Position numbers and translations under genes: made by a program
Shown here: positions 47,428 through 63,909 of the stretch, piece after piece
Numbering within the stretch: the stretch's first letter is position 1
How the letters are laid out: the number at the start of each line of letters is the position of its first letter
The notes under the pieces: model-generated
What the model was told of the DNA's origin: nothing
Seen by the model: only the letters and a program-made list of their open reading frames with translations
Databases searched by the model: none
Source: Clavelina lepadiformis
Lineage: Eukaryota > Chordata > Ascidiacea > Aplousobranchia > Clavelinidae
Length of the DNA stretch: 64,000 nt
NCBI RefSeq assembly: GCF_947623445.1
Contig: NC_135242.1
Coordinates: forward strand, 8,866,001-8,930,000
Direction of reading: 5' to 3'

Positions 47428-49648
47428 ATGAGGTCAACTTTGGCGTCGCTTCTTAGCTGTAAGTATAGCCTACATTTTCATGGACACACTGGTGTAGGGG
47501 CACGGTTAATGCTGCCTGACTTGTAAGTTAAAATTTTACCATCATGTCAAATGTTTTCTTGCATAACTTGTAAACAGAGCAACGTCAAATTTAAAAGTAA
47601 CAAGTTTTACCGATCATGTATTATCACCGTTACTTTATTTGTAGCTAAAAACTATTGTAAAACACATTTGCATTGCATTCCCATTACTTCCCGTTCGTCT
47701 TCATTTTTCTTCTTTCATCGCATTTTCTTGTTAGCGACTCAATGTATCGGCTATACACTGTAATAAGCGGTAACAAATAAACAATAGCTATACACTGTGT
47801 CTGTAACAACTATATAACCAAGGTAGCACATTTAGTAAGTGGATTGTACGGCGTTTCAAACTCTTTTCATACGACGTAACAAAATTGTACACCATAAAAT
47901 GGGAGCTATTGCACGTATACAGATGAAGTTATTTTTCATTTGGAGACGCTTTAACCCGGTTTTTGAGTCGTAAAACCGAAAGTTTTTTGCACATTGTTAG
48001 CCGGGCAGACATTGGACACACTAGTTGCGTACTTTCTGAAATGTGCTGCTGTTTGGCATCGCTTACCAGTAATTAAAGTGCTTTTAATGTTTTATCAGCA
48101 GTTCTGAAGAATCATTCAAAGCTATCTGCGGCATCAATTCATACAACAAAAGCCTATGAAGCTACTGTTTTACGGTAACATACTATAGTAACTACAAACT
48201 ACGTATAAGTAACATGTGTATTGCATTTAGAATGGTATTGCATCATTTAGCGTAGGAAATAAGAAATAGGATATTAAAGGCTTGGATCAAACAAACATAT
48301 AGTTTAAACAAAAACTGTTTCATGGCGATAAAAACATAACTATAGACTAGAGTGATTACATTGATCAGGATTGTATTGCAAACAAATTCGCAGACAGAAT
48401 ATGTTTTGCAAATTAAAAATGAATGCATGATGCATAAGTTAAAATAATTGGCATTTGCTGCAGGCAAAGGAACCATCCAAATGAACCAATCAAGCTGGTT
48501 ATCTTTGATAAAGATGGCACTCTTACCAGTTTTGATTCTATGTGGGCGCCATGGTGCAAAGAAGTTGCTAACCAGTTTGTGATAGCGCCATTTTATTTGC
48601 AAAATTTATTGATAAAGATCATGATGTTAACAATAGCGGAGAGATTCAAATGACTGACTTTACAATGTAGTCAACTAAGCGATTAATTTATTACATAATT
48701 CTTTGCAGCATAAAGAAAACACAAAACGGGAAGCGTGAATTGATTCATAAGTTTGCTCAGTTGCTTTTTAATTGTTTTTCCATAGACTTCAACAGAAAAC
48801 CGGCTTTGATGTGTCCAATGAGGCTTACCGCTCTTTCAATTATGACCCAGTCACTGGAAAAATCGGCAAAGGTCCGTTGGCAGAAAACACCCATGCCCAT
48901 GTTCATACTGATCTCGCAAGTATATTAAGCGAAAACTATCCATTTAGCTATGATGAGATATACAAAATTGTTTTTGATGTTTGCAAAAACTTGCAATCCA
49001 TGAAGCCAGTCGTCGAGGCCACATGTGATGTCACGCCTGTGTTTTCTGCGCTGAAAGATTCCAACATCAAAATAGCTGTCTGCACTTCAGACAACAGGAA
49101 AAGTACTATGCATGCACTGGAAGATTTGAAAATAAGTCACTTTGTTGATTACGTCATTTGCGGTGACGACGAACATAACACACCAAAACCGGCCCCAGAT
49201 AACGTCCATTTTATTTGCACCAAACTGGGAGTAGAAGAGAAGCACACCGCAATTATAGGTAAAGCAAATCTTTAATTAATTATTAAACCAGGCTTCCCAC
49301 GCGACACTTTATCTGTCTCGACTCCCATTCCCACACCATTCTGTGCCAGTTTTGGGCTGTCCCATCCCACGGGAATACCGCTGTAACGTCCTTTTGTAGG
49401 TGATAACTAAATAATAATATTTCCTTTACATATGGTTTAAAGGTGATACGCCAACCGACACCGAAATGGGAAAAAGGAGTGGTCTCGGTTTGGTAATCGG
49501 AGTTCTTTCTGGAGTTGGCGACAAAAGTGATTTGATACCAGAAGCGGACGTAATTGTGCACAACGTTGAAAAAAGCTTGCCTCTGATTCTGAATCCAGAT
49601 TTGCTCACTGAAACGAGCAACGGCATTAATAACATGGGTCAGAATTAA
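47428..49648 (+). CDS. HAD-superfamily phosphatase, copy 1 of a tandem pair
   Basis: Predicted haloacid-dehalogenase-type hydrolase of the phosphoglycolate-phosphatase-like kind; substrate unknown. Exons: 47428..47458 (MRSTLASLLS), a weakly supported 25-nt exon 47735..47759, 48464..48574, 48786..49258 and 49443..49648; phases close to 281 residues. All four HAD motifs are visible: motif I DKDGTLT (nucleophile D34 and acid D36 in this model), motif II CTSDN, motif III Lys in NTPKPAPDN, motif IV GDTPTD. The segment between motifs I and II is a helical cap. Copy 2 begins 5.7 kb downstream in the same orientation with matching lengths for exons 1 (31 nt), 3 (111 nt) and 4 (473 nt). The short basic/hydroxylated N-terminus could be a targeting peptide, but this is unclear. 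Exon 2 was chosen only for its pyrimidine tract and phase. Confidence 0.85.
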
Positions 49649-53087: not shown

Positions 53088-54778
53088 ATGACGTCAAACT
53101 TGGCTTCGTTTCTAGGCGGTAAGTTCATGTATAGTGTACATGGATGCAATGGAAATAATAATTATGTTAAAAAGTTTGTGGTTGAATTTTACTTGCAGGT
53201 TTTGCCGTATTGCTAATAGTGACGTGTTTTGCGTTCTTTATTTAGATTAATTCAGAACAACTTAAACATAACCATCTTTTGCATAAACGTTGCGTATAAG
53301 CGCTTATCACTGTTGCTACATATATACACACTTACATGTATTTCATCTCTGTTTTACTATTGTTTCTGTTTGACAGTTTTTAAGAAGTACACCAAAGTAT
53401 CCGAGAAAAGCGAAGCTAAATCTCATGGATCACAAGTTTTAAAGTAAAATGAAGGCTACATGTTACAATAATTATTGCTTCAAACTATTATCGCAAGTAA
53501 CATATATGATTGTTATAGACTCAGGCCAAGGAATTCTTCAAATGCGCATATCAAGCTCGTTATCTTCGATAAAGATGGCACCCTTACCAGTTTTGATGCG
53601 ATGTGGGCACCATGGTGCGAAGAGGTTGCTCAACAGTGAGTTTGTAGGCTAGTGATAAACCTGATTCTTCAGGACAGATCGTATTGGGATGCCAAGAGCT
53701 GATAATCGAGTAATATTTATGCTCTATAACGACATGTTTTAATATAACGCGTTCTGAACTCCCCGGGAGAATCTCGAAATTTGCTGCCTTATCTCGGCCG
53801 CCGTCTAATTTCCTGAACGGAAACAGCCACGCTGAAGCATTGTATATGTGAAAATACTTTTAGTGGTAGGACTTGCCCAAAAGTCGCTAATGTTATGATA
53901 TGTCTAATCGCACATTTTCGATTTAAAAATTCTGTTTTCAATGAAATAATTATTTTCTTAAGGCTGCAGAAGAAAACCGGATTAGACGTTTCTAATGAAA
54001 CATTTTGTTACTTCAACTACAACCCGAAAAAGAAGAAAATTGGAAAGGGCGCCTTGGCCGAAAAAACGCATCAAGAAATTCAAACTGAGCTGGCATGCAT
54101 TTTAAGTAAAACCTATTTGTTCGACTACGAAGAAATTTACCAGATTATTGTGAAAGTGTGGGACAGCGTCCAGTCTATGAAGCCTCACGTGGACCCGACT
54201 TGTAATTTAATTCCGGTATTTAAAACACTGAAGGCATCTGACATCAAAATAGCGATTTGTACTTCTGACAACAGGAAGAACACACTGCAAGCTCTAAAAG
54301 CTTTAAATGTACGTCACTTTGTGGATTACATCATGTGTGGTGACGATGTACAAAGCACGCCAAAACCAGCCCCAGACAACGCTCATTTTATTTGTTCTAA
54401 AGTTGGGGTCACTGAGAAGCACACTGCTATGATAGGTAAAGTTGCTGATTGGCATTTATAGTTGTTTCATTTTAAAGACTTTCTGTACTTACATCAAGAG
54501 TCTTCTAATTTTTCTCTAATATTGTTTCCGTAATCATAACTAATGATTTAATGACACCTTATCGCTTATTTGCAGGTGACACGCCTGCAGACACACAAAT
54601 GGGGAAAAGGAGTGGTCTCGGTTTGGTAATCGGAGTTCTTTCTGGAGTTGGCGACAAAAGTGATTTGTCCCCAGATGCTGACGTAATTGTGCACAACGTT
54701 GAAAAAAGCTTGCCTCTGATTTTGAATCCAGATTTACTTACTGATGCCAGTAATAGCATGAGCCTTTGCCTAGATTAA
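53088..54778 (+). CDS. HAD-superfamily phosphatase, copy 2 of a tandem pair
   Basis: Paralogue of the gene at 47428-49648. Exons: 53088..53118 (MTSNLASFLG), 53377..53443, 53525..53635, 53963..54435, 54576..54778; phases close to 294 residues. HAD motifs are intact: DKDGTLT (D48, D50), CTSDN, Lys in STPKPAPDN, and GDTPAD. Exon 2 encodes a charged linker (VFKKYTKVSEKSEAKSHGSQ) with no counterpart in copy 1. Exons 3 and 4 have exactly the same lengths as in copy 1 but differ at many codons, while exon 5 shares long identical nucleotide runs. An AATAAA lies near 54855. The function is a predicted phosphatase; substrate and location cannot be told from sequence. Confidence 0.88.
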
Positions 54779-60376: not shown

Positions 60377-61763
60377 TCAGTCATCTTCTTCTTTACCAAA
60401 CGGATACTTTTTAGGGTTCATATTACGGGTCCTTCCAGTAATGTTCTTTTTCTTATTACTTGGTATTACTTCATTTTTGGATGAGCATTCGACTTGGCTC
60501 TGACACTCACAGATGCATTTCCGTTTATATTCTCGGCCAAAGTTTGCTGGATTGGGTTCAACGGCTTTAGACTGTATTTCGATAAGTTCTCTATAAGACA
60601 GTTAATAGTTGTGAGAAAGAAAGCGGAATATACAAGTGCTGCCAATACCAGAGATGAGATATACTGAGATGAAATCAAGGCAGAGTTTAAGAAAAGGACA
60701 TACAAAAAACGTGTAATCCTCTGCCTAACCAAAATTTTTACATGCACTTAGAATCAAAAACTCTATTACAAATTTCACAAATATTCTATTTGCTGCATGT
60801 GCTATGAAACATGGTACTGTGCCATACAAATTCACCAAATATAATATGGTGTCAGTGGCCACAAACCATAAGATTTGGATTCATAATACTGTATTTACAA
60901 AATCACAGTAATATCTTAATGAGCTAGCATGGGATTAATTTCTTACCAAACTAACTATATATACTAGTGCCACAACTAAAACCTTAAACCTGTAAAGAGT
61001 TACTCAATTTTACTTACTTTGGTTTGCCAACAATCTTTTGAACGCGAGTCAGTATTTCAATTTGACTTTTGCCTTCCAAGTCAATATAAAATTTGTCACC
61101 ATCATCTGTAATTATTAACAATACAACCGGTTTTAGGAAAGAGTCACATGCTAAACATGCTCAGTCATTTTCATTTCATTCTATACTTACCTGTGTAAAA
61201 CGTAATAAAGGGTGTTGGGGTGAGATCCTTCATGCACAAAATCTGGACGTCAGGATTTTTGTACTGGAGTTGTGAAAAGTTTAATTCCACAAATTTCCTG
61301 AAAAAATTATTCTGTATATGTACCAAAAAAATGTATGCCGAATCAATGCTGTATATCTTACCATTCCAAAAATTTAGTGTGTAAATCTATCACAACAGAA
61401 AATGGTGATGTGATTTAGTTTACTGTTTTCGTAGCTCAAAACTCAAGCCTATTAAACATTTTTATAACAAAACATCATCAGTTGGTTATACAGTACTTCC
61501 TCGATTATCCGTACCTCGTTTAACCGGCATTCGATTATCCGGCCGAGTGATCAATGACTTTGGGAGGTCGTTTTACTTCGCATGATTGCACTTGCAACTA
61601 TCATATGCGTGATATTACTCTGGTTTTTATTTTTCAATTGACGTTGAACCGCCGCCGTAGCTACTACCGATTGAATGGTTTAGTGAGGTCCTCCGATTGG
61701 ACCCGGAGCGGCTGGCAACGGCCGAACCGGTGTCCGAAAAGACGATCTAACTTGATCATTTAC

Positions 61764-61818
<55 letters not shown>

Positions 61819-62943
61819 TCGAAACGAACGGAGGCTCCCGCTCGAGCTGCGGCGGCGTCGCCAGGAAACCGGCCGCCTCTCGCGTTTGTCGAGGTCAAGA
61901 AGCGCCCGTTGAGGCGCTCGACAAGGCACAAGTCTTTCACGGGCGTCTAGTACTCCCGCGGTTTCAAGTGACGCTGGTGAGATCATCCGCTCGGCGCTCA
62001 CATTCAAACCTGTGACTGCTTCGTAGAAGCTGTAACGCTGGATCACTCGGCTCGCGAGTCGATGAAGGACGCAGCTAGTTGCGTGAATTAGTGTGAATTG
62101 CAGGGACACATTGAGCATCGACGTTCTGAACGCGAATTGCGGCCTCGGGTTAATCCCGGGACCACGCCCGCCTCAGGGTCGTCTGTAAAGCAATCCCGGC
62201 GCACCCGTCGCCCGGGCGAATGCGTAGTCGGACGGAGACCTGTGTCTCCGCCGTCCCGTCGAAGTCAGCAAGGGTCCGGCACGCGATCGGATCGACGGCG
62301 GCGCGACGGCGACGACGCGCGGCGGATCGACCTCGAAGAGGTGTCCTCGTTTCGCCAAGTCGCCGTGATCGATCGCGAACGTCATCGATCCTCGGCACGT
62401 GTGACGTCTCTTACATTTCGGCCTGAGGTCGGACGAGACTACCCGCTGAATTTAAGCATATTACTAAGCGCCCGCGTCCTTCTGATCGAGGCTTCGTCCC
62501 ATAGCGGGTGTCAGGCCCATGGCGTAATGATGTAAAAATACAAATTCAATTATCCGTTTTTTTTGCTTATCCGGTCAGATTTTTGAAAATATTGACCCAA
62601 CTTGACCGGATAATCGAGGAAGTACTGTACCAATATAATAAAAAATACAGGCTACATAAACATATAAACTAAAACTTTTTTAAGGTAACAAATATATTAT
62701 TACTTGATGTTTAAATTACCTTGCACCGTCATGTAGATGCTTATTACTTTCGTAATTTCCAAAATTTATCATCATAATTTGTATGCTGTCTCTTAGCATT
62801 ATTCCCTGCTCGAGGTATTGCTTAGTACGAACGATAGGGTTCTTTCCTTGTAGCAAACCACGCATTGGGTTTGCTGCTCCATCTGTGGCCCTTTTAAACC
62901 CAATTGTTCGCCGAGCTAACAGTTGTACAGCCAACAAAACCAT
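60377..62943 (-). CDS. mrps25: Mitochondrial small ribosomal subunit protein mS25
   Basis: Structural protein of the mitochondrial ribosome small subunit. Exons: 60377..60590, 61018..61105, 61191..61297, 62720..62943; phases close to 210 residues. Core match to human MRPS25 as recalled: [59 protein letters not shown], and [18 protein letters not shown] before a basic tail ending KEEDD. The first Met gives a 26-residue extension ([20 protein letters not shown]...) that looks like a mitochondrial targeting sequence; the internal Met at 62865 aligns with the human start and would give 184 residues. Intron 1 (1.4 kb) contains the rDNA-bearing transposon at 61491-62627, opposite to the gene if the rDNA sense strand is taken as reference. 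Confidence 0.93.
61648..61818 (+). rRNA. 18S rRNA 3'-end fragment (inside transposon)
   Basis: The last ~170 nt of small-subunit rRNA, recognisable from CTACTACCGATTGAATGGTT, GTAACAAGGTTTCCGTAGGT and the terminal GGATCATTA. It begins abruptly at a slightly altered ACCGCC(G)CGT-like sequence next to transposon DNA. A few positions differ from the near-universal animal sequence (for example TTTACAGGAAG for TTTAGAGGAAG), so it is best read as a non-functional captured copy. Confidence 0.88.
62026..62183 (+). rRNA. 5.8S rRNA-like sequence, probably a pseudogene
   Basis: About 158 nt, full length for 5.8S, between ITS1 (61819-62025) and ITS2 (62184-62418). Landmarks: GGATCACTCGGCTCG, GTCGATGAAGGACGCAGC, TGAATTGCAGGGACACATTG and GAACGCGAATTGCGGCC. 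Compared with the conserved animal sequence there is a G for A in GAAGAACGCAGC and an extra G in TTGCAGGACAC, both in normally invariant regions. With its position in a transposon this argues that it is not a functional gene. Ends are approximate. Confidence 0.85.
62419..62524 (+). rRNA. 28S rRNA 5'-end fragments with internal deletion
   Basis: 62419-62470 matches the start of large-subunit rRNA (CGCTGAATTTAAGCATATTA, then CTAAGCG). The next block, about 62475-62524 (TCCTTCTGATCGAGGC, then GGTGTCAGGCCCAT), corresponds to 28S sequence that normally lies one to two hundred bases further in. The intervening part, including the usual GGAGGAAAAG after CTAAGCG, is missing. The copy is therefore internally deleted and ends where transposon sequence resumes. 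Confidence 0.8.
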
Positions 62944-63909
62944 GTTTCACATTCCCGGTAAATTGTTAAGTGCTGAAGTTTTTAAAACAAATTCCTGCAT
63001 TTTTAACAAAAGGATGGAAAAGGAAGTTTGAACAAGCAAATAATGATGCATTGTATACAATAACATTACTGTTTCAGAACTTGACTGAAAGTGATAAAAA
63101 CACACAGTGGAAGGTAGACCTGTTACTGTTGTTAAATTAAAACCAAAATATAGATATGCCAAACTTACTTTTTACACTGCTGCTTGCATATTTAAATAAA
63201 TGCACAAGTTTGGTTTTCCTATATCTAACAATGAGAAGTTGCAATTTTTTTCAAACTTTCATCAATTGTAAAATATTTAAGGGTTGAATCACAAATTACT
63301 CAGTGTGTAGCATAAGGCTGAGAGAACACACTAGAAAAAAATAAGGCACTTTTATCATTTATATACTGTTTTTCTAAATGACTATTTCACAGTAAATAGG
63401 TAATGCAGCCTGTTGTTAAAGATAGGCGGTTAGGTTAGGAGAATAGGAACATGCAAAAGGTTGATTTTAGCTGTTTAAGGTTTTATTGGAGTTAGATTTA
63501 AATTAGAAGGTAGATATAGGTTAGGTTCAAATTTAAGAAATTTACTAAAACGAAATTTAAATTTCTGATTGATTGAAGAACTTTGCTGAATTTTCTTTAT
63601 AAAGAAAAGTAAGTATTTTCTACTGTGTTGTTGTAACAAAATGCTACACACAAAGTCAAAATCATTTGTAGTTTGATTTTTGTATGTTTCGCAATTGCCA
63701 GAATCAGAATTAACGTTGCGGATCATCGATGTTTAAACGGGTATAGGCCTATCACTCTGTCATGACACTGTTCGTTGATAAGTCTATCAGACGCCTTTCA
63801 AAATATTAAGATTCTACACAACGAGTAGGGTAGTGGTAGGCGATGTAAAGCCAGTTTTGTAATCAATCCAGTAATATTTTCTCATGACACATGTTAAAAG
63901 TACTAAATG
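62944..63909. other. mrps25 upstream region, nothing coding recognised
   Basis: Contains the presumed mrps25 promoter just above 62943 and repeat Y copy 4. Open frames at 62947-63162 and 63475-63726 are AT-rich and unrecognised. Confidence 0.4.
63410..63545 (-). repeat. Dispersed repeat Y, copy 4
   Basis: TGTTGTTAAAGATAGGCGGT, GGAGTTAGATTTAAATTAGA and AGGTAGATATAGGTTAGG: reverse complement of the 50.3-kb copy with moderate divergence. Confidence 0.6.

Follow-up and report, generated by a model that had tools for sequence, protein, structure and literature searches.

A pogo-type DNA transposon family with contiguous ribosomal DNA as its interior in the ascidian Clavelina lepadiformis

How does a piece of the ribosomal RNA transcription unit come to lie between the inverted repeats of a DNA transposon, and is such a composite a mobile element in its own right, or a product of chance insertion, duplication or assembly? 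The question was raised by a 1137-bp segment at 61491–62627 of the window, by which we mean the whole 64,000-nt stretch of Clavelina lepadiformis DNA analysed here (NC_135242.1, positions 8,866,001 to 8,930,000). A first-pass annotation of this stretch had described the segment as a cut-and-paste transposon with ribosomal DNA (rDNA) as its cargo, which could scatter rDNA spacers around the genome, exchange with the rDNA array and confuse ITS barcoding.

The segment has the organisation of a non-autonomous pogo/Tigger-type transposon whose interior is contiguous rDNA (Table 1). The perfect 21-bp terminal inverted repeats (TIRs) and the TA target sites that had been claimed for it were both seen, as the two 23-nt arms that include the TA (61489–61511 and 62607–62629) are 100% complementary. 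Matches to Rfam on the plus strand located the 3′ end of 18S (RF01960, 61648–61810) and the 5.8S (RF00002, 62027–62181); the 18S end of the native rDNA locus L042 used for the comparison in Table 1 is the copy at 1344–1491. The 18S 3′ end, ITS1, ITS2 and 28S 5′ sequence of the first-pass annotation are all present, but its full-length 5.8S is not, since a 23-bp deletion spans the ITS1/5.8S border; the copy aligns with the native 5.8S (154 nt) from residue 10 onwards, and the alignment contains 2 mismatches and 1 gap. The 28S part also has an internal deletion in the window copy: 134 alignment columns are missing in it and in one other copy (L010), and are present in 20 of the 22 aligned copies. 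The 144 gap columns counted in the 28S region of the consensus alignment include the window copy's different right junction. In copy L013, the 28S segment is longer than that of the window copy and matches RF02543.

Table 1. Features of the rDNA-carrying transposon in the window (positions are those of the window)
Feature	Position	Strand	Evidence
Left TA target-site duplication	61489–61490	.	TA on both sides in 24/24 two-ended rDNA copies
Left terminal inverted repeat, 21 bp	61491–61511	+	100% complementary to 62607–62627
Left transposon backbone, 151 bp	61491–61641	+	98.0–98.7% identity to rDNA-free L035–L037
Left-junction filler, 18 nt	61642–61659	+	Absent from L035–L037 at that place
18S rRNA 3′ end	61660–61818	+	RF01960; 96–97% identity to the 18S ends of L042, L043 and L044
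ITS1	61819–62035	+	Alignment to native ITS1 of L042; borders by eye
5.8S rRNA without about the first 9 nt	62036–62181	+	RF00002; 143 identities to the native 154 nt
ITS2	62182–62428	+	Alignment to native ITS2 of L042; 3′ border approximate
28S 5′ end, two pieces around a 134-bp deletion common to L010	62429–62524	+	Alignment
Right transposon backbone, including the right terminal inverted repeat (62607–62627)	62525–62627	+	
Right TA target-site duplication	62628–62629	.	

On the minus strand of the window, within 61014–62946, the rDNA transposon is flanked by exon-like pieces of an mS25 (mitochondrial ribosomal protein S25) gene. When the pieces within 62716–62946, 61171–61386 and 61014–61160 were joined by hand, with splice sites assigned by eye, they matched PF05047 and solved mS25 chains. 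Because it is located between these pieces, the transposon is probably in an intron of the mS25 gene, on the opposite strand. The window also has two similar tandem ORFs (48772–49275 and 53895–54461), which by eye resemble copies of a HAD-type phosphatase gene, and a gene for a kinesin light chain with 100% identity to the C. lepadiformis protein.

The C. lepadiformis assembly was searched with the whole element, which gave at least 67 matches (40 of 193 candidates scored), and with the rDNA interior, which gave 35 (all 33 candidates scored). Twenty-eight of the interior matches lie within elements with these ends, at 26 places: 24 two-ended elements and two partial duplicates, L033 and L034, in each of which one end was found. 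The other seven are distributed between the native rDNA region on C7 (two), the contigs C54 and C70 (one each), which end inside 18S and are presumably native rDNA, and a second transposon family (three), described below. The 24 two-ended elements are found on 8 of the 9 chromosomes: C3 has six, C1 has four, and C2, C4 and C7 have three each, while C5 and C6 have two each and C9 has one. TA borders were found on both sides in all of them, if L021 and L027 are each allowed a one-base change in length at one of their ends. The distribution agrees with the vehicle for rDNA spacers proposed at first pass, as 24 loci have this rDNA enclosed by these ends, more than chance would produce; ends and rDNA are jointly present at each of these loci, and the possibility that they had arrived by separate insertions, which a count elsewhere in the genome could have favoured, was not borne out. 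Among these elements, L031 has an insertion of ~530 bp and L032 a large internal deletion. Both were left out of the alignment, and the divergence figures given here thus refer to 22 copies.

Similar loci might also be produced by chance insertion of transposons to either side of rDNA pseudogenes scattered in the genome, or into rDNA itself, followed by segmental duplication of the block. The pair L033 and L034, with flanks that are 99.4% identical over 700 bp, is indeed a segmental duplication. However, the 24 two-ended copies have the same two ends with TA borders in different surroundings: apart from this pair, the 700-bp flanks differ between copies, except that L016 and L030 have a repeat in common and that L016 and L026 match at 80% over 56 bp. 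Moreover, sites without the element were identified. Joined flanks with one TA had uninterrupted matches elsewhere at no fewer than 16 places for L013, at least one for L018 and at least 24 for L022. This search covered the first 1663 of 2880 letters, which contain 13 of the 24 blocks in full and one more in part, with 40 of 957 candidates scored, and the three elements for which it gave empty sites are a lower bound. Next to L016 lies an uninterrupted relative of the L030 site; its junction has only one TA, and over 80 bases two differences were counted. Insertion was therefore directly demonstrated for four elements, L013, L018, L022 and L030, through their empty-site relatives, and we regard chance insertion followed by segmental duplication as a very improbable origin of the family.

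An artefact, in which reads from the rDNA array had been collapsed into transposon copies during assembly, is in our opinion just as hard to believe. It is true that the native array is poorly assembled, with runs of N on C7 and with C54 and C70 ending inside 18S. On the other hand, the rDNA elements occupy 24 separate loci, with changes specific to single copies and deletions that mark subfamilies. According to the available text of its description (PMC10884593), the assembly is based on HiFi reads at 117-fold coverage and has a QV of 67.4, and a mis-assembly is unlikely for this reason as well.

A mobile non-autonomous family needs a source of transposase, and elements with the same ends but no 5.8S match were found at L035–L041 and L048. 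Two of these, L039 and L041, are ~2450 bp long. L041 is 2446 bp long and bordered by TA at either end. Its 552-aa ORF is uninterrupted and encodes the domains CENP-B_N (PF04218), HTH_Tnp_Tc5 (PF03221) and DDE_1 (PF03184); the aspartates D187, D301 and D336, with 34 residues between the last two, were picked by motif as the DDxD catalytic core. The ends of L013 are 100% identical to those of L041 over 78 bp on the left and 96 bp on the right. In the window copy, the first 78 bp of the left backbone show 98.7% identity to L039 and L041, and the last 101 bp (62527–62627) show 100% identity to both of these and to L038, L040 and L048.

In its own genome, the L041 transposase was the sole whole-query match above 90% identity without a stop among the matches listed (at least 81; 79 of 226 candidates scored). 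At least five further near-full matches, at 97–98% identity, have one or two stops each, and distant pogo-like families, at ~35% identity, have open frames too. Among the best 120 of 515 public protein matches, the nearest showed 80% identity, while the nearest with its host given was from a sponge (43%). Judging from the shared ends and the low divergence, it is likely that the L041 transposase is the driver of the rDNA family. The TA target, the TIRs and a partner transposase with the three domains named above are the features that the family has in common with pogo/Tigger elements of the Tc1/mariner group. Tigger elements are described as polyphyletic in the available text of PMC7325037, and the pogo/Tigger-type label used here leaves the position within pogo loose.

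For the backbone itself, L035–L037, which have no 5.8S, are the best model, because their left match to the rDNA elements extends over 151 bp, as opposed to 78 bp in L039 and L041. On the right, they have 96–102 bp in common with the rDNA elements, and identity over the common parts is 97–99%. The left subterminal stretch of L035–L037 (79–334) differs from that of the transposase-encoding L039 and L041; thus, internal replacement in this family predates the capture of rDNA.

At the left junction, the backbone continues to TTTTTCAATTGA and is followed by 18 nt of filler, after which 18S begins with GCTACTACC. When up to 3 substitutions were allowed, the filler had no match in 10–11 loci, comprising native rDNA and related elements, except in the rDNA element L013. 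The right junction exists in two forms. L009, L010, L016 and L024, four of the 22 copies aligned, exit 28S earlier and retain more of the transposon, while the others extend ~21 nt further in presumed 28S and retain less of it. As neither form is a simple deletion of the other, the history of the family must have had more than one step; the two forms might go back to a longer ancestor, from which both arose by later deletion, or to an exchange between elements.

The family most likely originated from an rDNA-free relative of the L035–L037 type, in which the interior was replaced by a contiguous piece of host rDNA of ~1 kb that reaches from the 3′ end of 18S to the 5′ end of 28S. Excision would have left a gap, and the capture may have taken place when repair of this gap was interrupted and the template switched to the rDNA array; both the left-junction filler and the internal deletions fit such a switch. 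The element would then have been mobilised in trans by the partner transposase, with the rDNA probably as passive cargo.

The 22 aligned copies differ from each other by 0.31–4.15% (231 pairs), and since the mean is only 1.76%, the spread of the family is recent. Relative to the consensus, divergence is 0.13–2.75% in the rDNA interior (gaps not counted) and 0–3.2% in the ends. The window copy shows the largest interior divergence among the 22 and pairs with L010 (support 100/100, in a bootstrap that had not settled). The 5.8S is identical to the native one in 6 of the 24 two-ended copies, and several copies have deletions in the rDNA. Alignment of the interior to the native unit in L042, which had been proposed as a check, gave 98.0% identity for L013 and 90.9% for the window copy (BLAST, gaps included), and the interior is of the host's own rDNA lineage. 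Taken with the shared ends, the TA target sites at 24 places, the four empty sites and the partner with an intact transposase, this bears out the reading as a cut-and-paste transposon with rDNA cargo. We put a probability of about 0.95 on the segment being a mobile pogo-type element of this kind, one copy of a young non-autonomous DNA transposon family.

The same native unit was used to look for exchange between the elements and the array. Of 788 sites, 14 distinguish it from the consensus, five in the left filler and nine in the rDNA, and there is a 3-nt insertion besides. The native base was found in no copy at seven of the nine rDNA sites and in a single copy at the other two (L021 and L009, at different sites). 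With native bases almost absent from the copies at these nine sites, the comparison to one native unit gave no indication that the elements exchange with the array, and conversion tracts were likewise not found against the single assembled native ITS unit. The exchange suggested at first pass is not supported by this comparison. The native 28S 5′ end was not found in the assembly, all 28 matches (26 of 26 candidates scored) being inside elements. The native rDNA region (L042, at C7:2642000–2651999, L053 and L054) is interrupted by runs of N, and the only assembled native ITS unit is odd in that a stretch is missing directly after ITS2; the sequence that immediately follows ITS2 there is what we take to be a later part of 28S. 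One 18S copy of the native region passes from GTTTCCGTAGGT into unrelated sequence.

If the cargo were more than passive, it could provide the element with homology to the array for repair or exchange, or with protection from silencing, and would be kept by selection. Such a role would be in line with the presence of rDNA in a second, unrelated transposon family of the same genome, and also with the Pokey rDNA spacer repeats, which the available text of PMC3849761 describes as evolving in concert with the array. We nevertheless find it unlikely, as the nine native-versus-consensus sites bear no sign of exchange and several copies have lost parts of their rDNA, and we keep to passive cargo as the preferred reading.

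The second family was identified at L049 (C3:10156000–10165999), L050 (C6:17123500–17133499) and L051 (C1:3050500–3060499). Its members at these loci carry 35 nt of ITS1 together with 18S, which matches the whole model at two of the loci and the last third of the model at the remaining one. The inverted repeats are ~410 bp long, with 87–88% identity in L050 and L051. Two relatives, L056 and L057, have no 18S match, and both of their sides are common to the family at 94–99%. The terminal repeat (15 of 15 candidates scored) gave seven two-ended elements and one single end. Three of the seven carry 18S; five of the seven were retrieved, and in the remaining two 18S is taken to be absent on the basis of the interior search, which covers the 18S 3′ end only. 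Target duplications of 3 bp were recognised by eye (ATA in L050, TCA in L056 and AAG in L057), with TTT/TTA in L051, and the three ORFs tested from this family had no match to Pfam families.

The segments captured thus differ between the two families, one beginning in the 3′ end of 18S and reaching into the 5′ end of 28S and the other consisting of nearly complete 18S and 35 nt of ITS1. That two unrelated families in one genome have different rDNA segments is the main support for a more tentative idea, namely that transposon gap repair in C. lepadiformis draws repeatedly on rDNA, from which two families have captured and spread different parts. It is a possibility to which we would give less than even odds, and two cases alone do not show a preference for rDNA. 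If true, template switching would be concentrated at the array, which has a high copy number and is active, and rDNA pieces would regularly leave the nucleolar array by way of such elements.

Non-autonomous members of pogo/Tigger usually contain deleted transposase or filler, whereas the Clavelina family has rDNA inside. MITEs are short, exist in many copies and have no captured sequence; the family described here does not fit this definition, with a 22-copy consensus of 1289 bp, 24 two-ended copies and an rDNA interior. In Pack-TIR and Pack-MULE elements, host sequence in the form of pieces of protein genes is taken between transposon ends and then multiplied. The Clavelina family is similar, since it has both an assembled native unit (L042, 98.0% to L013) and same-end relatives with no 5.8S match, but its cargo comes from the rRNA transcription unit. 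Mobile elements with rRNA-gene sequence also include Cassandra TRIM and SINE3/SINE28; these, however, are retroelements with 5S- or 28S-derived parts, while the Clavelina family is cut-and-paste and its rDNA segment begins inside 18S.

The nearest precedent found is Pokey of Daphnia, which is likewise a DNA transposon with rDNA-derived sequence. Pokey, which has mPok MITEs as relatives, contains ~200-bp IGS repeats and a 48-bp piece of ITS2, and inserts in 28S, as far as the available text of PMC3849761 describes it. Pokey is a piggyBac element with TTAA sites and 28S among its targets, and its short spacer repeats lie upstream of the transposase. In the Clavelina family, on the other hand, superfamily and target are different, and contiguous 18S-ITS1-5.8S-ITS2-28S fills the interior in place of the transposase. 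Its 24 copies were found dispersed outside the array with differing flanks, and no Pokey-like insertion in 28S was seen in the assembled sequence. The first-pass annotation knew of no described family of this kind. We found no description of a transposon family with a contiguous segment of the rDNA transcription unit in the open full text of PubMed Central, which is mostly without subscription journals, but DNA transposons with smaller pieces of rDNA are known through Pokey.

The anticipated confusion of ITS barcoding is plausible. The forward primer site of ITS5 is exact in 21 of the 24 copies and that of ITS1 in 20 of the 24, and as the sites are kept in most copies, the family is a warning for ITS barcoding in C. 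lepadiformis. Caution is also advisable in this species when rDNA loci are counted by sequence or by FISH. The cargo is unusual, and the family represents one way in which rDNA gets scattered. Since it is young and dispersed, and since its ends, the kind of donor and a likely driver are known, it makes one route by which rDNA leaves the array traceable.
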